Assembly: GCA_028868695.1 (NCBI GenBank)
Contig: JAGWTZ010000014.1
Location: 1-62,266, forward strand
Direction of reading: 5' to 3'
Length of the DNA stretch: 62,266 bases
Source of the DNA: Alphaproteobacteria bacterium
Lineage (GTDB): Bacteria; Pseudomonadota; Alphaproteobacteria; Rhizobiales; Aestuariivirgaceae
Of this stretch, positions 10,611 through 26,350 are shown in pieces (within the stretch, counting starts at the first letter, position 1; each line of letters begins with the position of its first letter). Under the pieces are notes generated by a model, which did no database searches, was not told where the DNA came from, and was given only the letters and a program-made list of their open reading frames with translations. Made by a program: the position numbers and the translations under genes.

Positions 10611-11585
10611 ATGAAGGACTTTGACCCGAAGTGGCGGGATTTTCCCCATTTTATCATTGGGATAACCAAGGAAATCTGGGAAGACAGGCAGATCAGTCTG
10701 CTTGAGACATGCTACGCGCCCAAAATTGTCGTGCGCGGCGCGGGCGGAATGAAAACCGGCAACCAGGCGGTGATCGATGACACCATGGCCAAGATGGCCG
10801 CTTTCCCGGATTTGCAGATTCTCGCGGAAGATGTGATCTGGTCGGGCAGCGAGACGCAGCACTATCTCTCGTCGCATCGCACCGTGATCACCGGAACCCA
10901 GACGGGTGACAGCGCCTATGGCCCGGCCAGCGGCAAGCGCTACTACGCGCGCTGCATTGCCGATTGCTCGGTGACAGCCGGCATGTTTGATGACGAATGG
11001 CTGGTGTTTGATTCAAGCGCCATCGTGAAACAGCTCGGCCATGATCCGCGGGATTTCGTGCGCCGCCAGATCATTGCCGAAGGCGGGCCGGCCAAGGCCA
11101 AGCGGCCTTTCACGCCAGATCAGGACAAGCCTGGCGCCTACACCTTGCGCGGCAATGACAACCCATGGGGTGCGCGCTTTGCCGGCATTCTCACGCACGT
11201 CATGGGCAAGGATTTCGCGGTGATCCCGCGCGAATATGACCGAGCGGTGCGCGTCGAACATCCCGGCGGCCAGGGCGGCTGGATGCCAAGCTTTGCCGAG
11301 GCGGCCTGGATGGGGCTGCGCTCATCTTTTCCGCAGGCGAAGTTCACCATTCATCATGTCATCGGCAATGATGAGGCCGGGCGGGTTCCGCGCGCCGCCG
11401 TGCGCTGGAGCCTTGATGGCCTGCACGAAGGCTATGGCCGCTTTGGCGCGCCCACGGGCGCCAAGGTGCACGTGATGGGCATCAGCCACGCTGAGTTTGG
11501 CCCCTGGGGCCTGCAGCGCGAATTCACCCAATATGATGAAATCGCCATTCTCAAGCAGATCGAGATTCAAACCGGCAAGTTCTGA
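10611..11585 (+). CDS. Tandem SnoaL-like (NTF2-fold) protein, copy 1
   Basis: A 324-residue soluble protein made of two SnoaL/NTF2-like halves (about 10-150 and 185-324). Members of this fold act as cyclases, isomerases, dehydratases or hydrolase partners; no specific reaction can be named. The ATG at 10611 follows the purine-rich AAAGGTGGG; an earlier in-frame start at 10578 would overlap the operator. It is a clear paralogue of the gene at 25193-26350 (shared IW.DR, YGPA.GKR, R.IADC, GAPTG blocks). It runs tail to tail with the hydrolase gene, 7 bases apart. Confidence 0.8.
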   Translation: MKDFDPKWRDFPHFIIGITKEIWEDRQISLLETCYAPKIVVRGAGGMKTGNQAVIDDTMAKMAAFPDLQILAEDVIWSGSETQHYLSSHRTVITGTQTGDSAYGPASGKRYYARCIADCSVTAGMFDDEWLVFDSSAIVKQLGHDPRDFVRRQIIAEGGPAKAKRPFTPDQDKPGAYTLRGNDNPWGARFAGILTHVMGKDFAVIPREYDRAVRVEHPGGQGGWMPSFAEAAWMGLRSSFPQAKFTIHHVIGNDEAGRVPRAAVRWSLDGLHEGYGRFGAPTGAKVHVMGISHAEFGPWGLQREFTQYDEIAILKQIEIQTGKF

Positions 11586-11592
11586 GGCTGCA

Positions 11593-12282
11593 CTAGGCCG
11601 CGGCCGCCAGCCATTGCCGCAAGTGTGCGGCTGTCACTTCCGGGGCTTCAAGTGTGGGCAGATGGGCAGCCCCTGGAACCACCACAAAGCGCGCTTGCGG
11701 CATGAGAGCGTGCATCTGCTCATGCCTGTCCCGCGGGCACAGCTGGTCATGTTCCCCCATCAGCACGAGGGCAGGGCCTTTGAAACCCGCCAGCGTTGCG
11801 CATTGATCTGCCCTGTCGCGCAGCGCTGTTGATTGCCGCACGAAAACTTCCGGCCCAAGAGCCATGGCCATGTCCATGCAGAGGTCGAGAATGTTTTTCT
11901 TCCTGGGGCCGGGGGCGAGATAGTTGGGCTTCATCTCATCGCGCAAAACGGCATCGAGGCCGCCTGCCAAGGCCTTGGCCATTTGTGGCCCGCGCCGGGC
12001 CTTGGCCTCGGCCGTTTCGGCGCGCGGATTGGTGTCGAGCAGCGCCAGCCGCTCAATGCGCTGCGGCGCCTGCGCCAGCATTTCCATGGCAACGATTCCG
12101 CCCATCGAAAGGCCAGCCAGCGCGAAACGCGGCGGCGCTTGCCGCAAGGCTGCCGTGGCCAGCGCGGCCATGCTGCCGTGCCCGGTGGGCAGCAAGTGGA
12201 TGACCTCGCAAGGTGGCGCTGAAAAGCCGCCCCACATGCGCGCATCGCACATCATGCCGGGGATCAGGACCAGCGGCGTCAT
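11593..12282 (-). CDS. Alpha/beta hydrolase
   Basis: A 229-residue alpha/beta-hydrolase fold enzyme. The nucleophile elbow GLSMGG, the acid in GEHDQLCP and the histidine in GAAHLPTLEAP make a complete triad. It has no signal peptide and should act in the cytoplasm on an ester, lactone or C-C bond; the substrate is unknown. The ATG at 12282 overlaps the stop of the MetE-like gene (ATGA). It is the last gene of the minus-strand operon that begins with the HisD-like gene at 16464. Confidence 0.85.
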   Translation of the reverse strand: MTPLVLIPGMMCDARMWGGFSAPPCEVIHLLPTGHGSMAALATAALRQAPPRFALAGLSMGGIVAMEMLAQAPQRIERLALLDTNPRAETAEAKARRGPQMAKALAGGLDAVLRDEMKPNYLAPGPRKKNILDLCMDMAMALGPEVFVRQSTALRDRADQCATLAGFKGPALVLMGEHDQLCPRDRHEQMHALMPQARFVVVPGAAHLPTLEAPEVTAAHLRQWLAAAA

Positions 12283-13400
12283 TTCACGCGCCGCGCACCC
12301 TCTTTCAGCGTGGCAAGCTTGGCCCAGGCAATTTCAGGGTCCACCGCACCAAAGCCCGCGAATGTGCCAAAGCCGCAATCCGAACCGGCGATGACGCGCC
12401 CGGTGCCCAGAATGTTGGTGAAGCGTTCCAGCCGCTGGGCCACGAGGTCCGGGTGCTCCACGAAATTGGTGGTGGTATCCACGGCGCCGGGGATCAGCAC
12501 CTTGTCCTCCGGAATGTCGCGCGCCCGGTCCCGGAACACGGTCCACTCATGGCCATGGCGCGGGTTGGCTGTCTCAAACAGGATGTAGGTGGCGGGCACC
12601 TTCATCAGCAGCGGGAACACTTTGGCCATGTCAATATCGCACACATGCGGGCCTTCATAATTGCCCCAGCAGATGTGCAAGCGGATGTGCTCGCGCGGCA
12701 GGCCTTTCAGTGCCTGTTCCAGCGCCTCGACATGGGTTGCGGCGATCTTCAGGAATTCAACGTCGCTCAGGTTTGAAAACAGCATGTGCCGGGAAAGGGC
12801 AAGGTCGGGGCAATCCAGTTGCAGGTCCAGGCCTGCGTCCAGAATGGTCTTGTATTCATCGCGCATCGCGTCAGCCAGCGCCGAGAGATATTCCTCGCGG
12901 CTGGCATAATGCGCGTTTTGCAGGAACAGGCTGATCACGCCGGGCGAGGCTGCGTTCATGAAGCCGCGGTCCACGCCATGCGCCGCCATGCCGGCCTTCA
13001 GGTTGGCGATGTCCTTCTGCAATTCGCCCTGGCCTTTAGATTTCACCGGTCCCACGCATTGCGGCCGCGCATATTGCGGTGTTCCGCCCTGCTTGGCCAG
13101 GCGGTCAAGGAAAGTCGGGAAGAGCTTGAGATCAGCGGGTGCATTGCGCGGGCTGTCACCGTCAAAGCCCGTGTAGCGGTCTTTGACATAGGTGGCATAG
13201 CTGATCTTGGAAGCCTCACCGTCGGAAACGATGTCGATGCCCGCTGCTTTCTGGCGGCGGACATTTTCGGCGACAGCCCCTGTCATGCAGGCATCGAATG
13301 CCGCCTGGTCATAGGTCTCGCCCTTTTCGCGGGCGAACAGGAAATCAACAACCTTCTGGCTGCGGGGCAGTGAACCAACATGGGTGGCAAGCAATGACAT
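12279..13400 (-). CDS. MetE C-terminal-domain-like Zn-dependent methyltransferase
   Basis: A 373-residue protein matching only the catalytic domain of cobalamin-independent methionine synthase; the family also contains epoxyalkane:coenzyme M transferases. The zinc ligands are intact: H242 and C244 (LHICWGNYEG), E276 (ILFETANP) and C342 (GSDCGFGT). The N-terminal folate-binding half of full MetE is absent, so it probably handles a thiol or a methyl/alkyl donor other than the standard substrate. It is 12 bases downstream of the cupin gene and overlaps the hydrolase gene. Confidence 0.82.
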   Translation of the reverse strand: MSLLATHVGSLPRSQKVVDFLFAREKGETYDQAAFDACMTGAVAENVRRQKAAGIDIVSDGEASKISYATYVKDRYTGFDGDSPRNAPADLKLFPTFLDRLAKQGGTPQYARPQCVGPVKSKGQGELQKDIANLKAGMAAHGVDRGFMNAASPGVISLFLQNAHYASREEYLSALADAMRDEYKTILDAGLDLQLDCPDLALSRHMLFSNLSDVEFLKIAATHVEALEQALKGLPREHIRLHICWGNYEGPHVCDIDMAKVFPLLMKVPATYILFETANPRHGHEWTVFRDRARDIPEDKVLIPGAVDTTTNFVEHPDLVAQRLERFTNILGTGRVIAGSDCGFGTFAGFGAVDPEIAWAKLATLKEGARRVK

Positions 13401-13412
13401 GCGCGGGCTCCG

Positions 13413-14381
13413 TTACAAGAGGCGGCCGGTGGCGCCGGCGGGGTCTTGCGTGTTCATTACGCGGTAGAGCGAGGCTTCGCCCGTCATCGACGGCGCAAGC
13501 GCATGCGAAAGGCCCGGCGGAATGGCGGCCGTATCGCCGGGGTTCAGCACCGTGGTGCCGCCATCCCATGTCAGGCGCCAGTGGCCGCGCATCGGCATCA
13601 GCACTTCATGCTTGTCGAGCACATAGGGCGTGTCCGGAATGGAATTGCGAGACAGAAGCTCCACTTCAAAACCGGGCCTGTCGCGCAACTTGCCATTGGC
13701 GCCAATCACCTTGGCGGGCTGGCGGTCGCTCAGGGCCATCAGGTCCCAATAGCGCGCCACGCAATGCGGGATCACATCGGCGGTTGTAGGCTCCGGGAAG
13801 GTTTTCAGCTGATCGTCAGTGAGCAGTGGCATGGGCGGCACGCCCGGCGGCAGGTTTTGGCCGCGCTTGGTGTCATAGAGCTTTCCGTTCTTGCCCAGCA
13901 CCAGGCCGTAGTCCTTGGCGTCAGTGATGACTTGCGGCGCCCAGATCACGCCGCCGCCGGCATCATCGCCGCCCAGCACCGCCATGATCATGCCATAGTC
14001 GGTGCCGACGTTTTCAAAGGCGCGGAAAATCCCGGTAGGGATGTTGAAGATGTCGCCTTCCTCGGCGATGAACTCGCCCGCCGTGCCCCACCGGCCCCAG
14101 AAGAAGCGCCAGCGGCCCTTGAGCACGAAGAACACTTCCGCCGTGCGGTGGGAGTGCAGGCTGTTGCGGCAGCCGGGGGGCTGGCCCGCCGCGCCAATGT
14201 TGAAGCCCGGAGTCTCGCGGATGTGCACATGCTGGTCTGGCGATTCCGAAACGCCGCCGCCGATGATGGTGAAGTTCTCCTTGCGGTTGGAGCCCGGCGT
14301 GTGCGCGTCAATGAAGGCGGTTTTGCACGGCTTCAATTCGCCATAGCGGACGATGCGGGCTTCCATTTCGGCAGGTGTCAT
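13413..14381 (-). CDS. Bicupin protein with degenerate metal site
   Basis: A 322-residue double cupin related in layout to gentisate-dioxygenase-like bicupins. The first cupin has H-x-H...E (LHSHRTAEVFFVLKG), but the second motif reads PTGIFRAFEN with Arg where His is usual. The second cupin has KHEVLMPMRG and PPGLSHAL. A complete 3-His/1-Glu site is therefore not seen in either half. The start ATG at 14381 follows AAAGGAAG by five bases; an in-frame TTG at 14396 overlaps the SDR stop. Function unknown. Confidence 0.75.
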   Translation of the reverse strand: MTPAEMEARIVRYGELKPCKTAFIDAHTPGSNRKENFTIIGGGVSESPDQHVHIRETPGFNIGAAGQPPGCRNSLHSHRTAEVFFVLKGRWRFFWGRWGTAGEFIAEEGDIFNIPTGIFRAFENVGTDYGMIMAVLGGDDAGGGVIWAPQVITDAKDYGLVLGKNGKLYDTKRGQNLPPGVPPMPLLTDDQLKTFPEPTTADVIPHCVARYWDLMALSDRQPAKVIGANGKLRDRPGFEVELLSRNSIPDTPYVLDKHEVLMPMRGHWRLTWDGGTTVLNPGDTAAIPPGLSHALAPSMTGEASLYRVMNTQDPAGATGRLL

Positions 14382-14392
14382 GATGCTTCCTT

Positions 14393-15157
14393 TCAATCGG
14401 CGGTCCAGCCGCCATCCACGATGAGTGAGGTTCCGGTGATCAGGCCTGCGGCGTCAGAGGCCAAAAACGCCACCGGCCCCATGATGTCCTCAAGCTCGCC
14501 CACCCGGCCCAATTTGATTTTCGAGGCGATCCAGGCCGCGCGCTCCGGGTTGGCGAAGGTGGGCGCTGTCATGGCGGTGCGGATGAAGGTGGGAGCAATG
14601 GTGTTGACGCGGATGCCATGCGGCCCCCATTCAATCGCCATGCTCTTGGTCATGCCTTCAAGGGCGTGCTTGCTGGCGGAATAAACCGCGCGGTCCACGC
14701 CGCCCACATGCGCCATCTGCGATGAAATGTTGATCAGGCTTCCCGGCTTGCCTTCGGCAATGAGCTTCTTGGCCACGGCGCGGGTGAGAAAATAGGCGGC
14801 GCGGAAATTGAGATTAACAGCGAAATCGAAATCCTCGGGCGTGGTTTGCGTGGCCGGCGCATGGCGCGCGCCACCTGCAGAATTGACCAGAATGTCGAAG
14901 GCGGGCAGCGCGGCGATGGCGGCTTCGGTGGCTGGAACATCCGTCACATCCAGCCGCAAGGGATGCGCCAGCCAGCCGGCGGCGCGCATTTCGGCTGCGA
15001 TGCCCTGCAATTCGCTTTCGCGCCGCGCCGCCAGCCAAACTTCAGCGCCCTGTTCCGCCAGGGCCACTGCGGCAGCCATGCCAATGCCGGAGGAAGCACC
15101 CGCCACAAGGGCGCGGCGGCCATCAAGGCGCAGGCTGGGCGTGCGGGGCAGGCTCAT
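14393..15157 (-). CDS. Short-chain dehydrogenase/reductase
   Basis: A 254-residue classical SDR using NAD(P). The cofactor motif is AGASSGIG (about residues 20-27), with NSAGG, the catalytic YSASK and the C-terminal [10 protein letters not shown]. The ATG at 15157 overlaps the HisD-like stop by ATGA, which fixes the start; a longer frame to 15253 is antisense-like. It probably oxidises or reduces a hydroxyl/keto group of the same substrate handled by the adjacent HisD-family enzyme. Confidence 0.88.
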
Positions 15158-16464
15158 TCCGCGCCCGCTCCATAAGGCACATTGCGGCCGCCATAACGGC
15201 GCACGCGCACATTGCACTGCTCGGCATGGCCGACGAAGCCTTCCAGCATGCAAAGCCGTGAGCCATAGGCCCCGATCTTGGCCGCGGCCTCATCCGTGGT
15301 GATGCGCTGGTAGCTGTGGGTCTTGAGGAATTTGCCAACCCACAGGCCGCCAGTGTAGCGGCCCGCACGCTTGGTGGGCAAAGTGTGGTTGGTGCCGATC
15401 ACCTTGTCGCCATTGGCCACATTGGTGCGCGCGCCGAGGAACAACGCGCCATAGCTGTGCATGTTGGCGAGATACCAATCATCCCGGTCTGTCATCACCT
15501 GCACATGCTCGGAGGCGATGTCATTGGCCACGGCCAGCATCTCCTCATGGCTTCCACACAGGATCACTTCGCCATAGTCTGCCCAGCTGACCCCGGCTGT
15601 CGAAGCCGTGGGCAGGATCTGCAGCAGCCGCGCCACTTCCGCCATCGTGCCTTCGGCCAGCTTGCGCGAATTGGTGATGAGAATGGCGGGTGAGTTGTAG
15701 CCATGTTCCGCCTGGCCCAGCAGGTCTGTGGCGCAAAGCTCGGCATCCACCGTGTCATCGGCAATCACCATCGTTTCGGTTGGGCCGGCAAAGAGATCAA
15801 TGCCCACCCGCCCGAAAAGTTGCCGCTTGGCCTCCGCCACAAAGGCGTTGCCGGGCCCCACCAGCATGTCGACAGGCTTGATCGTTTCTGTGCCCAGCGC
15901 CATGGCGCCCACGGCCTGCATGCCGCCCAGCACATAGATTTCATGCGCGCCGGCCAACTGCATGGCGGCCACGATGGCCGGGTGCGGCGCGCCATTCACC
16001 GGCGGCGCTGAGGCCACAATGCGCGGAACCCCCGCCACATTGGCCGTCAGCACCGACATGTGCGCCGAGGCGACCATGGGGAACTTGCCGCCGGGCACAT
16101 AGCAGCCCACGGATTGCACCGGAATGTTGCGGTGGCCGAGGATCACGCCGGGCATGGTTTCAATCTCGATGTCGCGCATCGAGGCCTTCTGCTCCTCGGC
16201 AAAATGGCGGATCTGCTTCTGGGCGAAACGAATGTCCTCCATGTCGCGCGGCGAAACCTTCTGCATCGCCGCTTCGATTTCAGAGGGCGAGAGCCGGAAG
16301 GAGGGCCTGTCGAACTTGTCGAACTTCACCGAAAGCGCGCGCACCGCAGCATCGCCGCCCTTCTCAATATCCGCCAATGTGGATTCGACAATGCCCCGCG
16401 TGCGCGCATCGTCATCGGCTCGTTCCTGGGCCGGTTTGCCGCGCTTCAGCCAGGTGACTGCCAT
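15154..16464 (-). CDS. HisD-family dehydrogenase (sulfopropanediol 3-dehydrogenase-like), copy 1
   Basis: A 436-residue NAD- and Zn-dependent dehydrogenase of the histidinol dehydrogenase fold. Zn and catalytic positions are intact: Q251/H254 (LLGQAEH), E319-H320 (SEHVQV), D353 ([10 protein letters not shown]) and H413. The [15 protein letters not shown] segment is unlike true HisD and resembles the HpsN (dihydroxypropanesulfonate dehydrogenase) branch, as I recall it. It sits outside any his operon. The start ATG at 16464 has GGAG six bases upstream; the frame continues to 16653 but would cross the operator at 16479-16492. Confidence 0.85.
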
Positions 16465-16478
16465 CTCGAACTCCACGA

Positions 16479-16492
16479 TGAATACGTTTGCA
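16479..16492 (-). promoter_or_regulatory. LacI-type operator C (TGAATACGTTTGCA)
   Basis: Matches TGCATACGTATGCA at 12 of 14 positions, and the surrounding ACGTTTGCAAACGT (16484-16497) is a perfect 14-bp palindrome. It lies 14 bases upstream of the minus-strand HisD-like start and would control the five-gene operon hisD-like/SDR/cupin/MetE-like/hydrolase. Confidence 0.7.
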
Positions 16493-16711: not shown

Positions 16712-18007
16712 ATGTCCAGCCCGTCTCACCCTTATCCTGCCGACAAGGTCACTTGGGTCAAGGCGCCGGCGCGCAGCGCCGAAGGCGACAACAAACCCGT
16801 GGCCGAGACGGTCGCCAAAATTCTGGCAGAGGTCAAGGCCAAGGGCGATGCGGCGGTGCGTCACTATTCGAAGGAGTTCGACAAGGCCGAGCTTGGCGCC
16901 TTCGAGGTTTCGAAGGAGGGCCGTGAGGCCGCCGTGGCACGGCTTGATCCGCAGACGCGCAAGGACACGGAATTCGCCATCGCCAATGTGCGCCGCTTTG
17001 CCGAGGCGCAGCTGGCCACCATTCTGCCGCTGGAAGTGGAGCCGCTGCCCGGCGTTTATATGGGGCACCGGGTGATCCCGATTGAACGCGTGGGCTGCTA
17101 TGTGCCGGGCGGGCGCTTCCCGCTGCTTTCTGCCCCGATCATGACCATCGTTCCAGCCAAGGTCGCGGGCGTTGATGAAGTGATTGCCTGCCTGCCGCCC
17201 AATGCCCATGAAGCCATGGTGGCGGGTTGCCATCTTTCAGGCGCTGACCGGATTTTCCGCATCGGCGGCGCGCAGGCCATTGCCGCCATGGCCTATGGCA
17301 CCGAAACCGTGCCAGCCGTTATGAAGATCATGGGCCCCGGCAACGCCTTCGTGAATGAGGCCAAGCGCCAGGTGTTTGGCACCGTGGGCATTGACCAGCT
17401 GGCAGGCCCCTCGGAAATCTACATCCTGGCCGATGCCACCGGCGATGCCGAGATGATCGCCACTGATCTTCTGGCCCAGGCCGAGCATGATGTGCGCACC
17501 CGTGTGGGCCTGATCACCACCCACAGGCCATTGGCCGAAGCGGTGAAGGCCGAGGTGGAGAAGCAGTTGAAGGGTCTTTCAACGGCGCATGTCGCAGCCC
17601 CCGCCTGGGCCGATTATGGCGAGATCGCCGTCTGCGCCGATGAGGCCGCCATGATCGCCTATTCCGATTTCATCGCCGCGGAACATCTGCAGGTCCACAC
17701 CGCAGACCCGCATGCCTTTGCCAAGCGCTTGCGCAACTATGGCTCGCTGTTCATCGGTGAGTTGGCCAGCGTGGTCTATTCCGACAAGTGCTCCGGCACC
17801 AACCACACGCTGCCCACCATGGCAGCGGGCCGTTACACCGGCGGGCTTTGGGTGGGCGCCTATGTCAAGATCGCCACGCATCAATGGCTGGATGAGCGCG
17901 GCGTCAATGCCGTCGCACCTCCGGCCGCGCGCCAGGCCGCCAGCGAGGGCCTCGAAGGCCACCGCCGCGCCGCGCAGCTGCGCCTGGACAGGATGCAGAA
18001 GCGCTAA
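16712..18007 (+). CDS. HisD-family dehydrogenase, copy 2
   Basis: A 431-residue paralogue of the divergent HisD-like enzyme. Zn and catalytic residues align almost number for number with E. coli HisD: Q256, H259, E324-H325, D358 and H417. It also has [15 protein letters not shown], the non-histidine-pathway variant. The start [15 protein letters not shown] follows CGAAAGGAGC. It ends three bases from the convergent amidase. The two copies differ enough to suggest two substrates or two oxidation steps in one pathway. Confidence 0.85.
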
Positions 18008-18010: not shown

Positions 18011-19366
18011 TCAGGCGCCTGGCCGCAGGGCCGCGTGGTCGGTTGCCTGTTCAAAGGCATGGCCCACGCGGCACAGCATGTCTTCTGCGCCAAGGCCAGC
18101 AACAAGCTGAAGGCCCAGCGGAAGGCCGGAGTCAAAGCCGCATGGCACTGACAAGGCCGGTTGCCCAGTCAGGTTGAAGGCAATGGTGCGCATCGGCGTC
18201 CACACCGCCTTTTCGCCACCAAAGGCTGAAAACGGCAGGGCTGGGCCCAGTGTCGTTGCGGTGAGCACCACATCATGCCCGGCCATCGCCAAGGTCATGG
18301 CCTCGGTCAGCGGCTGCACCGCGCGGCGGGCCAGGGCAAGATCAGTGTCCGAAACCACGGCGCCAAAGGCCAGGCATTGCAAGGTGGGCTTGCCATAGGC
18401 GGCCTGCCGCGTGGCGATCAGGTCCGCATGCGCGGCCAGCGCCTCGGCATGAAGGATCACTGAGGCAGCGGCCTCATAGGGCGCATAGTCCGGCAGTTCG
18501 ATCAGCGACACGCGCGCCCCGCGCATCGAAAGCATGGCCGCTGCATCATCAAGCGCTGAAACAACGGCGGCGCTGCACTGCGGATCATCGGCGAACCAGC
18601 GCCGCGCATAGCCGATGCGGAGGCCCTCAATGCTTTTGCCGATCATCGCCGAGGCGGGCCGCCAGTGGCCGCCATCGCCCAGCGCATCGAGGGCCAGTGC
18701 GGCTTCGGCCACCGTGGCGGCCAGCGGTCCAACATGATCCAGCGAGGGTGAAAGCGGAAAAGCGCCAGCCAGCGGCACGCGCCCGAAACTTGGCTTGAGA
18801 CCCACGCAGCCGCAATAGGCCGCGGGGGAACGGACGGAGCCGCCCGTATCCGTGCCAAGCGCAAAGCGCACCAGGCCGCCCGCCACCGCAGCCGCCGAAC
18901 CAGAGGAAGAACCACCGGTGATGTGATCAATGTTCCAGGGGTTGCGGGCCGGCGGGTCGGGCAGGTTCATGTCCGGCCCTACCATGGCGAATTCATAGGT
19001 GGCCAGCTTGCCGATGAGCACAGCGCCTTGCGCGCGCAGCCGCGCCACGGCAGCGGCATCCGCATCAGCAACGCGCCCTGCCAGAACCGCCGAGCCGCAA
19101 GTGGCCGGCTGGCCTGCCACGTCGATCAGGTCCTTGATTGCCACCGGCAACCCGCAGAACGGGCCGGGATCATTGCCTGCCGCCAGCCGCGCGTCCGCGG
19201 CATCTGCCTGTGCAAGGGCATCCGCCGCAACATGCGTGAAGGCGCAAAGCTGTTTGTGCGCCTCAATGCGCTCAAGCACGGCTTCGGTGAGGCTGCGCGA
19301 AGTCAGCGTGCCGGAACGCAAAGCGGCGGCGGCCTCCAGCAATGTCAGGTCAGCAGGGCTGGTCAT
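18011..19366 (-). CDS. Amidase (amidase signature family)
   Basis: A 451-residue amidohydrolase with the Ser-cisSer-Lys triad: AIKD (Lys), GGSSSGS and GTDTGGSVRSPAA. It is closest in style to GatA/AtzE-type amidases. The substrate amide is unknown; it may be a breakdown intermediate of the compound imported by the adjacent transporter. The ATG at 19366 overlaps the stop of a 57-residue ORF (ATGA), which parallels AtzE-AtzG pairs. It is the last gene of the transporter operon. Confidence 0.9.
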   Translation of the reverse strand: MTSPADLTLLEAAAALRSGTLTSRSLTEAVLERIEAHKQLCAFTHVAADALAQADAADARLAAGNDPGPFCGLPVAIKDLIDVAGQPATCGSAVLAGRVADADAAAVARLRAQGAVLIGKLATYEFAMVGPDMNLPDPPARNPWNIDHITGGSSSGSAAAVAGGLVRFALGTDTGGSVRSPAAYCGCVGLKPSFGRVPLAGAFPLSPSLDHVGPLAATVAEAALALDALGDGGHWRPASAMIGKSIEGLRIGYARRWFADDPQCSAAVVSALDDAAAMLSMRGARVSLIELPDYAPYEAAASVILHAEALAAHADLIATRQAAYGKPTLQCLAFGAVVSDTDLALARRAVQPLTEAMTLAMAGHDVVLTATTLGPALPFSAFGGEKAVWTPMRTIAFNLTGQPALSVPCGFDSGLPLGLQLVAGLGAEDMLCRVGHAFEQATDHAALRPGA

Positions 19367-19536
19367 GCGTTCTTGTCCGGCTTGCCTTCGAGGTAGCGCG
19401 CAACACGCGCCACTTCAGATCGCAAGTGCCGCGCCCCCTGCAATGCGGCCTCAAAGGCCTTGCCTTCCAGCTTCAGGCCCTTCGCCTGCAAAAGCCTTTG
19501 GAATTCCGCTTCGCTCAAGCCCTCCGTGTCCTTCAA
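19363..19536 (-). CDS. Small AtzG/GatC-like amidase partner protein
   Basis: A 57-residue ORF beginning with TTG at 19536 and ending at 19363. Its start overlaps the LacI stop as TTGA and its stop overlaps the amidase start as ATGA, so both boundaries are translationally coupled. The protein (LSEAEFQRLLQAKGLKLEG, then a helix ending RVARYLEGKPDKNA) is all-helical in character, like the small AtzG/GatC subunits that wrap and stabilise amidases. Without it there would be a 166-base hole in an otherwise gapless operon. The family call is by pattern and context, not a database match. Confidence 0.65.
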   Translation of the reverse strand: MKDTEGLSEAEFQRLLQAKGLKLEGKAFEAALQGARHLRSEVARVARYLEGKPDKNA

Positions 19537-20552
19537 ACCGCGCCCCCGTGCTTGCGCGTGGAACCGCGGATCACAAGCCCCGTGTCGAGCACCACATGCT
19601 TGGATTGCCCGGTGCCTTCAGAGATCGAAGTGATCAGCATCTGCACGGTTTCCGAAACCATCTGGTCAACGTTCTGGCGCACAGTCGTGAGGTTATAGGC
19701 AGGCCAGGCGGCGGGCGGCACGTCGTCAAACCCGGCCACTGAAACATCTTGCGGGATTCTGAGGCCAAGTTCAAAGCGCAGCACATCCATCACCGCGAAT
19801 GCCATGTGGTCATTGGCCACGAACACCGCGTCCGGCCGGTTGGGCGTGGCAAACAACTCGCGCGCCGCGCGCTGCGCGTCGGTATAGCTGAAGTTTCCTT
19901 CCGCCCTTGAATGCAGGTTCATGCCGGCGGCCTGCAGCCCGGCAAGGAAGCCCGCCTCGCGGTCAACCTGCGTGGATGCGCCGGAAAAGCCCGCGACATA
20001 GGCGATCTTCTTGTGGCCAAGCGAGATCAAGTAATCGGCAAGCGCACGCCCGCCGCGCAGGTTGTCGCTGGTCACCGAGGAAAGGCGCGGGTCGCGCAGG
20101 CCGCGGTTGAACAGCACAACGGGAATGCCGGTGGCATGGCAGCGCGCCGCAAGATCGGAGGACATGGAAACCGAGGCCATCACGATGCCGTCCACCTGAT
20201 AGTCCATCAGTTCATGCACCACCTGATCGACATTGGTCGTCGAAACCGGCGCCAGGAAAACCAGAACGTGATAACCCACCTTCTGCAATTCGGTGGAAAG
20301 CTTCTCAACCACTTCGGGGTAGAAATAGTTTTCAAGATAGGCAACCAGCAGGCCGATGATCCGGCTCTTGCCGGACTTGAGCGACCGGGCCAGCACATTG
20401 GGCCGGTAACCCAGCTTCTCGGCGGCGGCCCGCACTTTCTCTGCTGTCTTGGGGCTGACGGATGATCCAAGCGTGAACACGCGGCTGACAGCCGACTGGC
20501 TCACCCCCGCCAGCGCCGCAACTTCCAGAGACGTCACCTTTTCATTCGCCAT
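19533..20552 (-). CDS. LacI-family transcriptional regulator
   Basis: A 339-residue repressor. The N-terminal helix-turn-helix is VTSLEVAALAGVSQSAVSRV, with hinge helix residues PNVLARSLKSGKS, then a periplasmic-binding-like sensor domain. The start MANEKVTS at 20552 follows a GGGAGGCAAGGACGGG purine run; an in-frame ATG at 20606 is less likely. It lies inside the operon SBP-permease-permease-ATPase-LacI-AtzG-like-amidase and is the natural reader of operators A-E. Confidence 0.92.
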   Translation of the reverse strand: MANEKVTSLEVAALAGVSQSAVSRVFTLGSSVSPKTAEKVRAAAEKLGYRPNVLARSLKSGKSRIIGLLVAYLENYFYPEVVEKLSTELQKVGYHVLVFLAPVSTTNVDQVVHELMDYQVDGIVMASVSMSSDLAARCHATGIPVVLFNRGLRDPRLSSVTSDNLRGGRALADYLISLGHKKIAYVAGFSGASTQVDREAGFLAGLQAAGMNLHSRAEGNFSYTDAQRAARELFATPNRPDAVFVANDHMAFAVMDVLRFELGLRIPQDVSVAGFDDVPPAAWPAYNLTTVRQNVDQMVSETVQMLITSISEGTGQSKHVVLDTGLVIRGSTRKHGGAV

Positions 20553-20614
20553 CTTCGCATTCCCGTCCTTGCCTCCCGTCTTTCCAGATGGAGGGCTTTC
20601 GGGCAAGCCCGTTG

Positions 20615-21673
20615 TTAGGTTGCGCCCAGGCGCGCGCCGCTGGCCTGGTCAAAAAGATGCACGGCGGCCGCAGGCACGCTGATGCAAAGAGGCGCGCCAA
20701 TCTCGATGCGGAAATCCTTGGGTGCCTTGGTGGCCACCAGCGCGCCACCGACACGAACGGTAACCAGCGTGGCATCGCCCAAAAGTTCCATGGTGTAAAC
20801 CGGCGCCTTGATCTGCGAAGGCCGTCCCGCCGCGGCAATGGCGGCATCCTCGGCCCGGAAGCCCAGGATCGCTGGCCCATCCGCCGCCTTGAGGCCTGTA
20901 ACCTCCATGCCTTCGGCGCGGAATGTGCCCTTGCTGATCTGGCCGGAAACGAGGTTCATGGCCGGAGAACCGATGAAGCCGGCCACAAAGGTGTTGGCCG
21001 GCCGGTCATAGATCTCGGTCGGCGTGCCCACCTGCTGCATCTTGCCCTTGCTCATCACCACCACACGGTCCGCCAGCGTCATGGCTTCGATCTGGTCATG
21101 CGTGACATAGATCGTCGTGGTCTTCAGCGTGTGGTGCAGGTTCTTGATCTGGGCGCGGGTTGAAACGCGAAGCTTGGCGTCCAGGTTCGAAAGCGGCTCA
21201 TCCATGAGGAAGGCATTGGGTTCGCGCACGATGGAACGCGCCAGCGCCACGCGCTGCCGCTGCCCGCCGGAAAGGGCGGAAGGACGCCTGTCAAGATAAT
21301 CGCCCAGCTCCACCATGGCGGCGGCGCGCATCACGCGCTCATGATGCTCGGCCTTGGGCACGCGGCGCACCCGCAAGGGAAAGCGGATGTTCTCATAGAC
21401 CGTCAGGTTGGGATAAAGCCCATAGCTCTGGAACACCATGGAGATGTCCCGGTCCTTGGGTTCGAGCCGGTTGACCAGCCTGTCACCAATCCAGATTTCG
21501 CCTTCGGTGATGCTTTCCAGCCCGGCGATCATGCGCATCGTGGTGGTTTTCCCGCAGCCAGAGGGGCCGAGAAACACAAGGAACTCGCCGTCGGCGATGT
21601 CGAGATTCATCTCGCTGACGCCCGTGACGCTGCCCCAGCGCTTTGCAACATTGTTCAGCCTGATACGGGCCAT
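20615..21673 (-). CDS. CUT1-type ABC transporter ATP-binding protein (MalK/UgpC-like)
   Basis: A 352-residue ATPase. Walker A GPSGCGKTTT, signature ALSGGQRQRVALARS and Walker B AFLMDEPLSNLDAKL are all intact, followed by the C-terminal regulatory OB-fold region typical of CUT1 carbohydrate importers. It energises the two permeases encoded just upstream (3-base gap). One ATPase gene implies a homodimer. Confidence 0.93.
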   Translation of the reverse strand: MARIRLNNVAKRWGSVTGVSEMNLDIADGEFLVFLGPSGCGKTTTMRMIAGLESITEGEIWIGDRLVNRLEPKDRDISMVFQSYGLYPNLTVYENIRFPLRVRRVPKAEHHERVMRAAAMVELGDYLDRRPSALSGGQRQRVALARSIVREPNAFLMDEPLSNLDAKLRVSTRAQIKNLHHTLKTTTIYVTHDQIEAMTLADRVVVMSKGKMQQVGTPTEIYDRPANTFVAGFIGSPAMNLVSGQISKGTFRAEGMEVTGLKAADGPAILGFRAEDAAIAAAGRPSQIKAPVYTMELLGDATLVTVRVGGALVATKAPKDFRIEIGAPLCISVPAAAVHLFDQASGARLGAT

Positions 21674-21676
21674 GGA

Positions 21677-22558
21677 CTATCCCTTCACTGCACCAGCCGT
21701 CAGGCCGGAAACGATCTGCCGCTGGAAAAAGAGCACAAGAATGAAAAGTGGAACGGTGGCCGAAACCACCGCGGCCACGGCGAACATCACATTGCCCGCG
21801 TTCTCGATGGAGCCGAGGAAAGACGCGATCTTGGGGATCATCGTCTGGTTTTCCTGCGACAGCAGCATCGAGGTCACGGTGAAATCATTGTAGCCGAGCA
21901 GGAAGCTGAACAGCCCGGTGGTGACAACACCCGGCCACATCACGGGAATGATGACCAGCCGGAAGGCCTGGAAGCGCGAGCAGCCATCCACGAGCGCGCT
22001 CTCATCAAGGTCCTTCGGAATGGAAAGAAAGAAGGAATGCAGCATCCACAGCGTGAAGGGCTGGTTGATGGCCACAAGCACGATGATGGTGGTGGGCAGC
22101 ACGCCCCAGATGTTCATCTGGAAGAACGGCAGCAGGTAACCCGAAACCAGCGTGATGTGCGGCATGGCCCGGAACACCAGTGCCGCAATCAACACCCAGA
22201 AGGCATAGCGGTGGCCCGAGCGGGCCAGCGCATAGCCGCCCAGCGTGCCCACAACCAGCGAGATGCATGTCACACAGAGGGTGACGATGACGGTGTTGAT
22301 GGCTGGCCGCCAGAATTCATTCTTGATCCACGCGCCGTCATAGCCGGCCAGCGTATAGGCGCCGCCGGTTTGCATGATGGTGCGGGTGCCATGGATGGCG
22401 TTCCAGAAGCTCACGCGCGAAAAGAAATCGCCTTCCACCTTGAAGCTGCCCCACACCGTCCAAGCAAAGGGGAACAGGGCGGCAATCAGCCAGGCGGCCA
22501 GGAATGCGGTTGTCAGGACACGCAGGCCGGCGGGCCGGCCATTGACAGCGTCGCTCAT
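21677..22558 (-). CDS. CUT1-type ABC transporter permease (MalG-like)
   Basis: A 293-residue inner-membrane permease with about six hydrophobic segments, the first near residues 12-33. The coupling loop DLDESALVDGCSRFQAFRLV is the EAA motif contacting the ATPase. It ends GLTAGAVKG, the usual C-terminus of MalG-type subunits. It lies one base after the partner permease stop and three bases before the ATPase. Confidence 0.93.
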   Translation of the reverse strand: MSDAVNGRPAGLRVLTTAFLAAWLIAALFPFAWTVWGSFKVEGDFFSRVSFWNAIHGTRTIMQTGGAYTLAGYDGAWIKNEFWRPAINTVIVTLCVTCISLVVGTLGGYALARSGHRYAFWVLIAALVFRAMPHITLVSGYLLPFFQMNIWGVLPTTIIVLVAINQPFTLWMLHSFFLSIPKDLDESALVDGCSRFQAFRLVIIPVMWPGVVTTGLFSFLLGYNDFTVTSMLLSQENQTMIPKIASFLGSIENAGNVMFAVAAVVSATVPLFILVLFFQRQIVSGLTAGAVKG

Positions 22559-22559
22559 G

Positions 22560-23591
22560 TCACACCACCTTGCGGGAGAATTCCCGCCATGTCCGGATCA
22601 GCACCGGCACAAGAAGAATTATGACGCCGATGATCGTCATCATGGAGGTGGCCGCGGCGGAGCCGAATTGCTGGGCGTCCTGGCTCACCAGATCATTGTA
22701 GACCAGCCATGAGAGGGAAGTGGCATTGGCCTCGGCGGAGAATCCGACGATCGGTTCAAACACCCGGAAATTGTCCATCAGTTGCACCAGCGCCACAAAG
22801 GTGGCCAGCGGCAGCAGATGCGGAATGATGACGAAGCGCGTTGATTCCCAGCGCGAGGCCCCGTCGATTTTGGCGCTTTCCAGCGTGTCCAGCGGCACAG
22901 TCTGCAGGCCCGCGTAAAAAACCACAAAGGAAAATGGCCCATTGGTCCAGATGCCATAGGTCAGCAGCACAAGCCAGGTGAGCGTTGCCGAGGCGCGCAG
23001 CGAAAGCCGCGGATCGCCCGACAGGCTTTGCAAGGTGGCGCCGAGGATGCCCGCGGGGTTGAACATCCACGAAAGGATGAGCGAGCCCACCAGCGGCGTG
23101 ATGATCATCGGAAGGATGGAGACAAATATGGCCGGCCCCCGCCAGAAGCGCGGCATGGTGTTGACGGCCAGCGCGATGATGAAGCCAAGCACCATCGCCA
23201 GCGGCGTCACCGCAAAGCAATAGACCAGCGTGAAGGCCAGCGCCCGGTAGAAGGGCAGGTCCATGATCTGGCTTGCTATGCCGCGCCACCCCGCGCCACT
23301 GGCGAAAATCTGGCCAAGGTCCTTGAGGGCGAGGTGGTTGTGGTCGGTGTAGTTCGAAAGCCCGGCGAATTGCCCTAGCGGATGTTCCTTCTTGATCGCT
23401 GCCATGGCGGCACTGTCCACCTTGGTCTGGGTCTGGCAGCCGAAGGGGTCGCAACTTTCCACCGAAGTGAGAATGGCCTCATGTTCATGGAACAGCGATT
23501 GCACCGCCACCGAGACAATCGGCAGCGTGATGAACAGCAGCATCGCCAGCAGCGATGGAAAGATGAAGGCGAAAAAGGTGCGGTGTGGCAT
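22560..23591 (-). CDS. CUT1-type ABC transporter permease (MalF-like)
   Basis: A 343-residue permease starting MPHRTFFAFIFPSLLAML, so the first membrane segment is immediately N-terminal. The EAA loop reads TLESAKIDGASRWESTRFVI. The frame is open upstream to 23726, but that would start inside the intercistronic hairpin, so 23591 is chosen. A periplasmic loop with CDPFGC, possibly a disulfide, follows the first segment. Confidence 0.88.
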   Translation of the reverse strand: MPHRTFFAFIFPSLLAMLLFITLPIVSVAVQSLFHEHEAILTSVESCDPFGCQTQTKVDSAAMAAIKKEHPLGQFAGLSNYTDHNHLALKDLGQIFASGAGWRGIASQIMDLPFYRALAFTLVYCFAVTPLAMVLGFIIALAVNTMPRFWRGPAIFVSILPMIITPLVGSLILSWMFNPAGILGATLQSLSGDPRLSLRASATLTWLVLLTYGIWTNGPFSFVVFYAGLQTVPLDTLESAKIDGASRWESTRFVIIPHLLPLATFVALVQLMDNFRVFEPIVGFSAEANATSLSWLVYNDLVSQDAQQFGSAAATSMMTIIGVIILLVPVLIRTWREFSRKVV

Positions 23592-23693
23592 CAACTTTGT
23601 CCAGTCAGGAAGGAAGACAAGGCAAGCGCCCGGGGCACCTGTGAGTTTGGCAGAGCCGGCGGCCATGGCAAGGCCGCGCCCGCGGAATTGGAC

Positions 23694-23727
23694 AATGGCC
23701 CGGCTGAGGGAGAACAGCCGGGCCATT
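23694..23727 (-). promoter_or_regulatory. Intercistronic hairpin between the CUT1 binding protein and permease
   Basis: A perfect 13-bp inverted repeat (23694-23706 with 23715-23727, 8-base loop) 18 bases after the binding-protein stop on the minus strand, with no clear U-run. It probably stabilises the upstream message or causes partial termination, and it argues against the upstream permease start at 23726. Confidence 0.65.
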
Positions 23728-23745
23728 TGGTGTGCGATGTGCGGC

Positions 23746-25002
23746 TTACTTCAGGAAGCCGCCCGCCTTGGCGGCGGTGTCGTAGGCGGCCTTCACCTTG
23801 GCAAGGGCAGCAGCGGCGTCCTGCTTGCCGGCGATGAAGTCAGCCAGTTCGGAGGAGAGCGCCGTGTGCAGCAGGCCCATATAGGGCTGCATCGGATAGG
23901 CGCGGGCACCGCCCTGGGCATTGCCGATGACGCCCACCGCGGCAGGGCCAGGCGTATATCCAGCCACCAGCCAGGTTGCGGCAGCAGGATGGGCCGCGAT
24001 GGTTTCAGGGCTGATGCCATGGATCATCGCCTGGAAGGAGACGGCAGCGTCAGCATCCGGAATGTTCTTGGCGATGGTGAAGCCATCCCACCACAAGGCG
24101 GCGGCAGGAATCTTGCCGCCATTGATGGTGGGGGCAGCGGCAAAGCCGGTGTTCTTGGCAACATCCGGATTGGCCTTGGCACTGTCGATGGCCGCACCCG
24201 CAAGCGAGCCCCACTGGTTCATCAGCGCCACGCTGCCCGAATCCCAAACCTTGTTCAGCTCATTGGCGTCATAGGTCAGGTATTCCGGCTTCATGAACTT
24301 GGTCATGGCCAGCATGGTTTCGAGAACCTTCTTGCCATTGTCATTGTCGATGGCCAGCTCGGCCGAGTCCTTCGCGAAGAATTCCCCGCCGGTGCCCAGA
24401 TACATGTTCACGAATTCCGCGGCGAGATCCCAGCCCGGCTTGTCCGAAGCGGCAAGCGGATATTCCAGCAGGCCCTTGTCCTTGATGATCTTGGCGTCGG
24501 CCAGCAGGTCTTCATAGGATTTGGGCGGCTGCAGGCCGGCCTTGTCGAGGATGTCCTTGCGGAAGAAAAGGTGCTGGCCGTTGCCCATGAAGGCAATCGC
24601 CATGATCTTGCCGTCAATCTTGATCAGCTGGTTGGGCTTGAGCGAGGAGCCATATTTGGCGACCAGTTCATCCAGCGGGCGGATCAGGCCGCCATTCAGC
24701 AGCGGAACGATGGAATTGTTGGCCACCATGGCCACGGTGTATTCAGCCGGATTGGCCGAAAGGGCCGGGCCCTGGATGTTCTTGTGTTCGGCCGTGGCAT
24801 TGGCCTTCACCGTCACCTTGTCCGTGGCGCAGGCAGCCGCGGCTTCGTTCACCACCCGCAGCGCTTCGAAGTCGTTCGACAGGATGCGCACAGACCCGGC
24901 ACCCTGGATGCCGCAATCCGCGCTGGCGAGATTGGCGCTGAAGGCCAGGGCCAACAGGCTGATCGCTCCGCCCGCGAGGGCTCGTGTAACACTCATCTTC
25001 AT
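23746..25002 (-). CDS. CUT1-type ABC transporter substrate-binding protein
   Basis: A 418-residue extracellular solute-binding protein. A Sec signal peptide is visible (MKMSVTRALAGGAISLLALAF, cleavage near ASA-DC), and the processed end CGIQG could be read as a lipid anchor only weakly because no good lipobox is seen. The ATG at 25002 follows AGGAAAG. The body has the MalE-like pattern (FRKDILDKAGLQPPKSYEDL, VWDSGSVALMNQWG). The ligand is unknown; the neighbours suggest a carbohydrate-like or polar amide/sulfonated compound. First gene of the operon, behind operator E. Confidence 0.9.
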   Translation of the reverse strand: MKMSVTRALAGGAISLLALAFSANLASADCGIQGAGSVRILSNDFEALRVVNEAAAACATDKVTVKANATAEHKNIQGPALSANPAEYTVAMVANNSIVPLLNGGLIRPLDELVAKYGSSLKPNQLIKIDGKIMAIAFMGNGQHLFFRKDILDKAGLQPPKSYEDLLADAKIIKDKGLLEYPLAASDKPGWDLAAEFVNMYLGTGGEFFAKDSAELAIDNDNGKKVLETMLAMTKFMKPEYLTYDANELNKVWDSGSVALMNQWGSLAGAAIDSAKANPDVAKNTGFAAAPTINGGKIPAAALWWDGFTIAKNIPDADAAVSFQAMIHGISPETIAAHPAAATWLVAGYTPGPAAVGVIGNAQGGARAYPMQPYMGLLHTALSSELADFIAGKQDAAAALAKVKAAYDTAAKAGGFLK

Positions 25003-25088
25003 TAGGCTTTCCTCTCTGCTTGTTGCTGGCCTGGGGCCGGGATTCTTGTCCACCACATCCATGGTGAGGAACAAACCTAAGCACCTAG

Positions 25089-25102
25089 TGCATACGATTG
25101 CA
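25089..25102 (-). promoter_or_regulatory. LacI-type operator E (TGCATACGATTGCA)
   Basis: Matches TGCATACGTATGCA at 12 of 14 positions. It lies 86 bases upstream of the binding-protein start and 28 bases from the terminator of the preceding gene, so it sits in the promoter of the transporter operon that also encodes the LacI protein (autoregulation). Confidence 0.7.
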
Positions 25103-25130
25103 AACATTTTTGAAGGCCAGGGCAGGCGGC

Positions 25131-25168
25131 TGTAAAAACAAAGCCCGGCCCCCTTTCAGGGGCCGGGC
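25131..25168 (-). terminator. Rho-independent terminator of the second SnoaL-like gene
   Basis: On the minus strand a perfect 10-bp GC stem (25143-25152 with 25159-25168, 6-base loop) is followed by TTTGTTTTTA. It begins 24 bases after the stop of the SnoaL-like gene and isolates that gene from the transporter operon. Confidence 0.85.
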
Positions 25169-25192
25169 GTTGAATTCCGGTTATCGAAGGAT

Positions 25193-26350
25193 TCAGGCGG
25201 AGACTGCGGCGGCCTTCACGTCTGCCAGTTGCGCCAGCTTCACCTGCACCAGCGCCGAGGCCTCATCGAACACCCGCCATTCATCAACAATCTTGCCATC
25301 CTTGTAATGGTAGTGGCTGATGCCCATGATCTGCACGCGCTTGCCCGTGGGGGCGCCAAGATGGGCGAGCGTGCCATAGCCCGTATGATGGCCTTCCATG
25401 ATCCAGCGCACGGCAACCTTCTCGCCGCCTTCCTCGCAAGGCGTGGAGCAAATGTGCTGCGGCGCAAACACGGCATCGGGCAGAGAGCCGATCAGCCCCA
25501 GCGTCTGGTGGATGACCGAGGCATGGCCATAAAGCTCTGCCATCAGCGGCCCGTGATATTGCACGGTGGGGGCGTAGACCTTGGCGATTGTGCCCAGCAT
25601 CTTGCGGTTGAACACCTCATGCAGCCACCGCAGTGTGTGGCGCTCCAGGTCTGTTGCGGCGATGGAGGTATCGGCTTCCGCCTCCGGCGGATATTGGCCA
25701 ATCATCAGGCGGTTTTCGCCGATATCAAGTGAAACCACGCCCTTTTCAAAGGAGGCACGCGCAATGCGCTCGGCATAGGCCTGAACGTCAAGGCCAAGCT
25801 GCTGCAGGATGGCGGTTGTGTCCGCCACCACCCATTCGCGGTAGATCTTGTTTTCATAGATCATGCAATCGGCCACCGTGCGCGAGGTGAACATGCGCCC
25901 CGTGGCCGGGCCAAGATGGCCGTTCTGGCTGTGGCGGCCCGTGCCCGTGACAAGGTGCGAGGTGTAGAAGCCGTCGCGGTCATTGCCCTTCCAGATCACA
26001 TGCGTGGCCATGCCGCGGCGTTCCGGGAACGACACCAGGCGCTGGATCGTGTCGCGCACGATTTCCTCGCGCGTGTAGATCGTTCCGGTGGTGCCGTAGA
26101 GCACGCAGTTGTGGGTGTAATGCGTATAGATCAGGCCGATGTCGCGCTCGTCCCAGATCTTGTGCGTGCAGCGCACGATATAGTCGACAATGTCGGTGTA
26201 GATGTCATCAAAGCCGCGCAGCGATTGCGAGCGCGGCGCATTCTGCGGCGCAAGGTCGGGGTAGTCATGGCGCTCAACCTGCTTGACGCGTTCAGCCTTC
26301 ATCGGCACCGGCTCATTGCCAGACGGCGCCGCCTCACCCTTCACTGCCAT
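25193..26350 (-). CDS. Tandem SnoaL-like (NTF2-fold) protein, copy 2
   Basis: A 385-residue two-domain SnoaL/NTF2-like protein, paralogous to the gene at 10611-11585 but with about 40 extra N-terminal residues (MAVKGEAAPSGNEPVPMKAE...). Shared blocks include HKIWDERDIGLIY, GPATGRMFTSRTVADC, HTGYGTLAHLGAPTGKRVQI and MGISH. The ATG at 26350 has AGGAG seven bases upstream. It has its own operator (B) and terminator, so it is a single-gene unit of the same regulon. Enzymatic role unknown. Confidence 0.8.
   Translation of the reverse strand: MAVKGEAAPSGNEPVPMKAERVKQVERHDYPDLAPQNAPRSQSLRGFDDIYTDIVDYIVRCTHKIWDERDIGLIYTHYTHNCVLYGTTGTIYTREEIVRDTIQRLVSFPERRGMATHVIWKGNDRDGFYTSHLVTGTGRHSQNGHLGPATGRMFTSRTVADCMIYENKIYREWVVADTTAILQQLGLDVQAYAERIARASFEKGVVSLDIGENRLMIGQYPPEAEADTSIAATDLERHTLRWLHEVFNRKMLGTIAKVYAPTVQYHGPLMAELYGHASVIHQTLGLIGSLPDAVFAPQHICSTPCEEGGEKVAVRWIMEGHHTGYGTLAHLGAPTGKRVQIMGISHYHYKDGKIVDEWRVFDEASALVQVKLAQLADVKAAAVSA

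Follow-up and report, generated by a model that had tools for sequence, protein, structure and literature searches.

Positions 10,611 to 26,350 of a 62,266-nucleotide stretch of DNA from an alphaproteobacterium of the family Aestuariivirgaceae hold one conserved gene cluster, which is one copy of a widespread gene set. The stretch, referred to here as the window, is a complete contig (JAGWTZ010000014.1; C58 of a 3.09-Mb genome in 101 contigs). The cluster encodes a CUT1-type importer, a LacI-family regulator, two double-domain SnoaL proteins (SnoaLA and SnoaLB), two HisD-like dehydrogenases (HisD1 and HisD2), a short-chain dehydrogenase/reductase (SDR), a bicupin, a MetE-like methyltransferase, an alpha/beta hydrolase and an amidase. 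Our preferred reading, to which we give slightly less than an even chance and for which we infer the substrate and every reaction alike, is that the cluster takes up and degrades mycosporines or mycosporine-like amino acids (MAAs), nitrogen-containing UV protectants found in algae, cyanobacteria, corals and fungi. The original prediction of an unassigned catabolic pathway served by a carbohydrate-type importer looks right; of the substrates it suggested, a modified amino sugar is not favoured and a sulfonated polyol did not hold up.

Conservation and distribution of the cluster

The recurring set (CUT1 importer, LacI regulator, double-SnoaL protein, bicupin, MetE-like protein, alpha/beta hydrolase, SDR and a HisD1 resembling the dehydrogenase HpsN) was found in Alphaproteobacteria and, in part, in Gammaproteobacteria, Deinococcus, Priestia and a haloarchaeon. 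The bicupin (at least 150 bits) was detected in 29 of 385 genomes of the same class; 26 of these also encode HisD1 (at least 60% identity), within 15 kb on one contig in 25 of the 26 cases, and SnoaLB is matched at E 1e-20 in 28 of the 29. The original prediction had itself named a lack of co-conservation as grounds for abandoning it; the genes proved to be strongly co-conserved, both across the class genomes and across the related loci described below. In the window's own family any SnoaLB match (E 0.001) was found in eight of 69 genomes, and near-full-length matches only in G000, G016 and G018, with 69% and 67% identity in the two other than G000. Genome G018 carries hisD2, SnoaLB, the permeases, the binding protein, SnoaLA, LacI, the ATPase, HisD1, the SDR, the cupin, MetE and the hydrolase in approximately 14 kb, in rearranged order and with no amidase match.

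Related loci were collected by scanning named genomes with an alignment of permease 1, which returned at least 582 stretches at E 1e-3, not all of which need belong to this cluster type; the best 80 were kept, and presence was counted on the 51 of these that are at least 18 kb long. Locus flanks stop at 10 kb, so that some absences reflect cut-off sequence, and the hisD1 set of the locus counts was picked by hand and unevenly (two rows at 74% left out, two weaker ones included), and its hisD1 p-values were set aside; the class-level counts use uniform thresholds. The periplasmic binding protein (SBP) was present in all 51 longer loci, LacI in 45, any SnoaL in 45, HisD1 in 43, the cupin in 42 and the SDR in 42, followed by MetE (30), the alpha/beta hydrolase (26), the amidase (21) and HisD2 (19). 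An aldolase of the RraA or HpcH type was matched in 22 of the 51 (19 RraA and three HpcH, two of the latter only approximately 28–33% identical). Among the remaining frames, the most recurrent families were further SnoaL paralogues (eight loci) and RraA (seven), all others occurring in at most four loci. Kinases, deaminases and glycosidases are lacking from the conserved set, and the amino sugar reading was dropped on this ground.

Additionally, three small alphaproteobacterial genomes (L055 and L056, 1.4 Mb; L057, 1.6 Mb) carry the importer, SnoaL, the MetE-like gene, the cupin (30–33% identical) and HisD1, and the pathway may thus reach streamlined lineages.

Two modules and horizontal transfer

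HisD2, the amidase and SnoaLB constitute a second, optional module: among the 19 hisD2 loci of at least 18 kb the amidase is present in 18 and SnoaLB in 15, and MetE pairs with SnoaLA in 24 of 30 MetE loci. The amidase/HisD2/SnoaLB form lies on annotated plasmids in Martelella, Roseibium, Pantoea and Novosphingobium; Sinorhizobium medicae has SnoaLB and the amidase, with no HisD2 found within the stretch, a carbon-nitrogen hydrolase occupies the usual place of the amidase in Deinococcus, and Priestia has a related gene set. The MetE/SnoaLA form was seen in Ruegeria, Octadecabacter, Marinovum (with no SDR match there) and Rhizobium SSA_523. The window carries both modules in the order of L087, L088 and L090 (Rhodobacter-type and a Pseudomonadota metagenome-assembled genome, MAG), with SnoaLA placed differently, and its cupin and MetE are 85–90% identical to the copies in those loci. 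This near-identical gene order and high identity, together with the small number of genomes of the window's own family that hold the cluster, make horizontal transfer between families likely. We infer that the set is better understood as a pair of modules that attack a ring compound whose amine substituents are exchangeable.

A proposed route for mycosporine breakdown

Each conserved gene could be given a step in a mycosporine route. Following import by the CUT1 transporter under LacI control, the double-SnoaL proteins would hydrolyse the ring C–N bonds, releasing amines (glycine, serine, ethanolamine and others) and yielding 4-deoxygadusol, and HisD2 and the amidase would convert an amino-alcohol or amide side chain (e.g. 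glutaminol) to the amino acid. The MetE-like enzyme would strip the C2 O-methyl group, the bicupin would open the resulting enediol-ketone ring with O2 and the alpha/beta hydrolase would open a lactone (or a methyl ester). A pyruvate aldolase of the RraA or HpcH type would split the tertiary 4-hydroxy-2-oxo acid to pyruvate and 4-hydroxy-3-oxobutanoate, the latter being reduced by the SDR to 3,4-dihydroxybutanoate, which HisD1, as a relative of HpsN, would oxidise to malate. Where SnoaL occurs without the ring core, only the amine would be used. More tentatively still, a mobile two-module pathway of this kind may be the genetic basis of natural-sunscreen turnover; the members of a SnoaL-fold family of C–N hydrolases would each be adapted to certain amine substituents, the MetE-like enzyme would serve as O-demethylase, ring opening would fall to a quercetinase-like protein, and a dehydrogenase derived from HpsN would make malate from 3,4-dihydroxybutanoate.

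Mycosporines carry an O-methyl group, and MAAs are abundant in salterns, corals and polar waters. According to an excerpt of a published account, MAAs usually bear a C5 hydroxymethyl and a C2 methoxyl group (PMC7828830), and these would provide targets for a dehydrogenase and a methyltransferase. Excerpts of a second account state that asterina-330 carries glycine and glycinol and that mycosporine-glutaminol has been isolated from fungi (PMC4665425); HisD2 and the amidase fit the glutaminol side chain of this fungal mycosporine. Amide and methyl chemistry, as originally proposed, are plausibly part of the pathway. Furthermore, shinorine and porphyra-334 have been suggested, according to an excerpt of a review, to lose their hydroxyamino acids by hydrolysis in Vibrio harveyi (PMC3083659).

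SnoaL proteins and their amine-enzyme neighbours

SnoaLA had 46 near-full-length, stop-free matches in the 80 related loci, at 49–54% identity in most A-type (MetE-containing) loci and 38–41% in L055–L057. Pfam matches, a structural model of SnoaLB (pLDDT 88) and Foldseek all indicate a duplicated SnoaL-type fold (a cystatin-like alpha+beta barrel), the closest Foldseek matches being SnoaL-type cyclases (IdmH, AclR and SnoaL2); limonene epoxide hydrolase, which is a water-adding enzyme, was also matched. In the stretches seen of Vibrio pelagius and Phaeobacter piscinae, the importer and SnoaL occur without ring-core genes, which suggests that SnoaL acts early in the pathway. In V. pelagius they lie beside a sarcosine oxidase and a serine ammonia-lyase (cut by the locus end and uncounted), and in P. 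piscinae near a Na:alanine symporter. An L-serine ammonia-lyase gene is located directly downstream of importer and SnoaL, in the same gene order, in L142 (Oceanospirillaceae) and L147 (Pseudomonadales); L147 carries ring-core genes on the opposite flank, and the L142 stretch starts with the importer. A single locus combines SnoaL with LacI, an MFS carrier, a sodium symporter and an L-serine ammonia-lyase in three Vibrio-like genomes (L197–L199), as well as on a plasmid of V. europaeus, and in L163 (a MAG labelled Desulfobacteraceae) the ethanolamine ammonia-lyase EutBC is encoded between SnoaL and the importer. This neighbour signal is small but suggests the release of small amines, and lyases for serine and ethanolamine would fit real MAA substituents.

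The modular anatomy and these neighbours suggest only the release of an amine and not which ring it is released from, so that SnoaL might instead free the amine of some other compound, a small ring or sugar-like molecule whose amines are exchangeable (e.g. betaxanthin-like imines or Amadori compounds), the core module degrading the rest. We consider this unlikely, although it deserves to be kept in view, as isolates from seawater, coral, ascidians and algae are among the hosts, alongside sources such as a solar saltern, leaves and soil, and as the combination of O-methyl, hydroxymethyl and amino-alcohol fits mycosporines better than any other class known to us. The lyases for serine and ethanolamine in the vicinity of certain SnoaL loci, along with the UgpC subfamily of the ATPase, could also be taken to indicate uptake and breakdown of glycerophosphodiesters (glycerophosphoserine and glycerophosphoethanolamine). 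This is scarcely credible, since UgpC is a generic name for CUT1 ATPases, an inspection of the recurrent genes by eye revealed no phosphodiesterase, and the bicupin, the MetE-like protein, the amidase and the pyruvate aldolase would be left without a role.

On a plasmid of the saltern archaeon Halobellus limi (L211), five SnoaL genes accompany a MetE-like gene (approximately 42% identical), neither a cupin nor a HisD being annotated in that locus, and MetE-like relatives (37–42% identical) were seen on many haloarchaeal plasmids. The selenium-binding protein SBP56, a member of the methanethiol oxidase family, is encoded near the SnoaL clusters of Phaeobacter piscinae (L080) and Marinovum algicola (L082), and in the latter is followed by genes annotated for dimethylsulfoniopropionate demethylation.

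HisD proteins and the sulfonate question

HisD1 has the PF00815 fold, and residues matching the catalytic E318, H319 and D352, which are invariant in 13 sequences, are kept, as is Lys353. Its best solved match was a sulfopropanediol 3-dehydrogenase (8v35), and its nearest solved relatives are dehydrogenases of 2,3-dihydroxypropane-1-sulfonate (DHPS). Given this relationship, the retained Lys353 and a HisD-SDR pair arranged as in hpsN/hpsO, HisD1 could be HpsN and the SDR HpsO in the catabolism of a DHPS-type compound, a member of the sulfonated polyols that had been suggested. The study of CpHpsN (PMC11382572) defines HpsN by the motif GRY(A/S)H, the histidine of which (His126) contacts the sulfonate. 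At this position HisD1 reads GKFPM and HisD2 GRFPL, with methionine or leucine in place of the histidine. Across the 80 loci, GRY(A/S)H was found in none of the 72 readable HisD matches (one spurious); hisD1 displayed GKFPM in 46 of 53 pattern matches (the spurious one included) and GKYPL in six, and hisD2 displayed GR(Y/F)PL in 19 of 19. Additionally, no zinc-type hpsP was noticed in the gene lists (an SDR is present) and no sulfolyase there or in the annotated clusters, no family search for either having been made. The sulfonated polyol pathway was set aside on the motif result, and we regard it as very improbable.

As the catalytic-matching residues and Lys353 are kept, HisD1 may accommodate a different small acid, for which 3,4-dihydroxybutanoate, the carboxylate analogue of DHPS, is a candidate; the product would then be malate. 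The genome has three PF00815 genes, the third of which (on C23, approximately 33% identical to the cluster copies) is presumably the histidine-biosynthetic HisD; the cluster copies, not being the only PF00815 genes of the genome, are not marked as histidine-biosynthetic enzymes.

HisD1 orthologues of 76–80% identity were also seen outside the cluster: on a Sulfitobacter pontiacus plasmid (L074) with an SDR, an HpcH aldolase and TAXI-TRAP genes, in Pararhizobium gei (L077) with an SDR, lactonases and a sugar ABC importer, and on pRL8 (L070) adjoining a transhydrogenase. HisD1 may act on a common intermediate further downstream. In Sinorhizobium medicae ml29 (L063, 7311–8623), hisD1 appears as two overlapping tblastn matches in different frames, resembling a frameshift; eleven other Sinorhizobium records have a single hisD1 match across 95% of the query.

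Bicupin, MetE-like protein and remaining core enzymes

The structural model of the bicupin (pLDDT 89) displays the bicupin fold, and its best Foldseek match was the quercetin dioxygenase YxaG (full-length TM score approximately 0.53, E 1.6e-14), followed by oxalate decarboxylase; the identity to YxaG is 14%, and the sequence match to it is weak (E 6e-4). Residues H81, H83, E87 and R125 are invariant. Similarly, H242, C244, E276 and C342 of the MetE-like protein are invariant in 14 homologues and match the zinc ligands of MetE (His-x-Cys, Glu and Cys); its scores against the methionine synthase models of NCBIfam fall far short of the cut-offs. The best NCBIfam matches of the alpha/beta hydrolase are PcaDC/PcaD, well below cut-offs. 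The SDR neighbours hisD1 in SnoaL-free loci as well, and annotated clusters contain an RraA or HpcH aldolase.

The quercetinase-like fold, and the RraA family that accompanies the bicupin in annotated clusters, would also suit a different ring chemistry on the same substrate class, in which HisD1 first oxidises the C5 hydroxymethyl group, cleavage gives 4-carboxy-4-hydroxy-2-oxoadipate and RraA releases pyruvate and oxaloacetate, or in which a quercetinase-like cleavage with loss of CO leads towards citrate. We consider this variant improbable, since it leaves the SDR without a role and since Sulfitobacter has HisD1, SDR and HpcH without a listed bicupin, which favours a downstream role for HisD1.

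Observations that weigh against a mycosporine pathway

Several observations weigh against the proposed breakdown of mycosporines. With regard to the enzymes, we know of no SnoaL-fold C–N hydrolase and of no MetE-like O-demethylase. The metal site of quercetinases and bicupin dioxygenases consists of three histidines and one glutamate, whereas the fourth ligand position of the bicupin is the invariant R125 (read from the sequence rather than from a metal-bound structure), and dioxygenase activity is not assured because the usual histidine appears to be replaced. No aldolase lies beside the cluster in the window, and a search of the window's genome revealed no aldolase of the cluster type but only a distant RraA on C10 (its best similarity to a cluster RraA being a short 36% stretch) and a 29% identical HpcH, both unlinked.

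With regard to distribution, MetE was not seen in 10 of the 19 hisD2 loci although mycosporines are O-methylated; in these cases it may lie elsewhere, or the alpha/beta hydrolase may cleave a methyl ester instead. Six of the 51 importer loci have no visible SnoaL, 31 of 57 hisD1 genomes in the class-level count are without such a bicupin, and HisD1 and the SDR are also found together without SnoaL or cupin. HisD2 homologues (57–76% identical) lie near a small cupin on plasmids of Sinorhizobium meliloti (L071), Aureimonas (L072) and Paraburkholderia caffeinilytica (L073), two of the three having an ABC importer and a class III-type aminotransferase nearby, a setting that is perhaps another amino-alcohol pathway.

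The amine-enzyme neighbours are few: sdaA was found in six and eutBC in one of 125 stretches (seven of 125 in all) and in none of 11 control stretches, the marker queries being drawn from the same loci as were counted, and the 125 comprising the best 80 and 45 hand-chosen stretches, several from one genome. Furthermore, the Vibrio loci share one ancestry, as do L142 and L147. SnoaL need not work alone in these hosts, as indicated by the ring-core genes of L147 and by one of the Vibrio-like genomes (G677), which has HisD1, SDR, HpcH, a partial cupin and two SnoaL genes at a separate locus (L200).

Gene content of the locus

Genes were called as open frames with family matches (Pfam, NCBIfam), start codons within longer frames being picked by conservation (Table 1). 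Every gene named in the original prediction was confirmed as an open frame with a family match at the position given for it; the LacI regulator, absent from its title, also belongs to the region. The "two tandem SnoaL proteins" are indeed two, each itself a double SnoaL domain, but they are not neighbours, lying at opposite ends of the cluster. The packing is operon-like: with the chosen starts, SDR/hisD1 (the SDR start overlapping the HisD1 stop) and hydrolase/metE share start and stop bases, and the gap between cupin and metE is 12 bases. The G+C content is 0.60–0.65 up to 24 kb and 0.57–0.60 beyond (3-kb blocks; window positions 1–24000 versus 24001–60000), a break that is not a simple insertion mark because it falls inside the cluster region.

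Table 1. Genes of the cluster, with positions in the window, family matches and proposed roles
Gene product	Positions	Strand	Family match	Proposed role
SnoaLA, two SnoaL-like domains	10611..11585	+	PF07366 + PF12680	Putative amino-substituent removal
Alpha/beta hydrolase, PcaD/enol-lactonase-like	11593..12282	-	PF12697	Putative lactonase or methyl esterase downstream of ring cleavage
MetE-like methyltransferase, catalytic domain only (Meth_synt_2)	12279..13400	-	PF01717	Putative O-demethylase
Bicupin	13413..14381	-	PF07883	Putative ring-cleaving dioxygenase
SDR oxidoreductase, KduD/FabG-like	14393..15157	-	PF13561/PF00106	Putative reductase giving 3,4-dihydroxybutanoate
HisD1, HpsN-like dehydrogenase	15154..16464	-	PF00815	Putative 3,4-dihydroxybutanoate to malate
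HisD2, second HisD-like dehydrogenase	16712..18007	+	PF00815	Putative oxidation of amino-alcohol side chain
Amidase-signature enzyme	18011..19366	-	PF01425; AtzE-like below cut-off	Putative side-chain carboxamide hydrolase
LacI-family regulator	19533..20552	-	PF00356 + PF13377	
CUT1 ATPase, UgpC-like	20615..21673	-	PF00005; NF008653 above cut-off	
CUT1 permease 1	21677..22558	-	PF00528	
CUT1 permease 2	22560..23591	-	PF00528	
Periplasmic binding protein (SBP)	23746..25002	-	PF01547	Putative mycosporine/MAA binding
SnoaLB, two SnoaL-like domains; HisD2/amidase-associated	25193..26350	-	PF07366 + PF12680	Putative amine-substituent release

Significance and comparison with known systems

No prior description of the same cluster was found in the open-licence literature, by gene family or by mycosporines (top-ranked results only for large sets), nor were bacterial genes for MAA or mycosporine breakdown (top-ranked results only), which does not prove their absence from print. 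If the proposed pathway is correct, the importer and enzymes of MAA breakdown would be named, a marker would be at hand for following MAA turnover in seawater, in salterns and on leaf surfaces, and two activities (SnoaL C–N hydrolysis and MetE-like O-demethylation) would be placed on folds for which they are not known to us. Even with a wrong substrate, this is a conserved set of approximately 12 genes for which no function was found in the literature looked at.

The 4,5-cleavage of gallate and protocatechuate ends in a 4-carboxy-4-hydroxy-2-oxoadipate/4-hydroxy-4-methyl-2-oxoglutarate aldolase step, and the proposed route resembles it in that an RraA-family or HpcH aldolase would close a ring-cleavage pathway; the substrate proposed here is non-aromatic, however, and the cluster-type aldolase was not found in the window's genome. 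The bicupin shares the two-cupin fold of YxaG and would act on a similar enol-ketone, but differs in its low similarity and in the invariant arginine in place of the fourth histidine, and a flavonol-type substrate is unlikely. The transformation of MAAs suggested for V. harveyi (Dunlap and Shick, cited in an excerpt of PMC3083659) is alike in the release of hydroxyamino acids, SnoaL and serine ammonia-lyase genes being found together in other Vibrio; that excerpt names no genes, and the present cluster adds ring breakdown. Finally, DHPS catabolism by HpsN/HpsO, as described in PMC11382572, differs in the GRY(A/S)H motif and in its sulfonate genes, the place of which is taken here by SnoaL, bicupin, MetE-like protein, amidase and CUT1 importer, and resembles the cluster in placing a HisD-fold NAD dehydrogenase, with equivalents of Glu318, His319, Asp352 and Lys353, beside an SDR.

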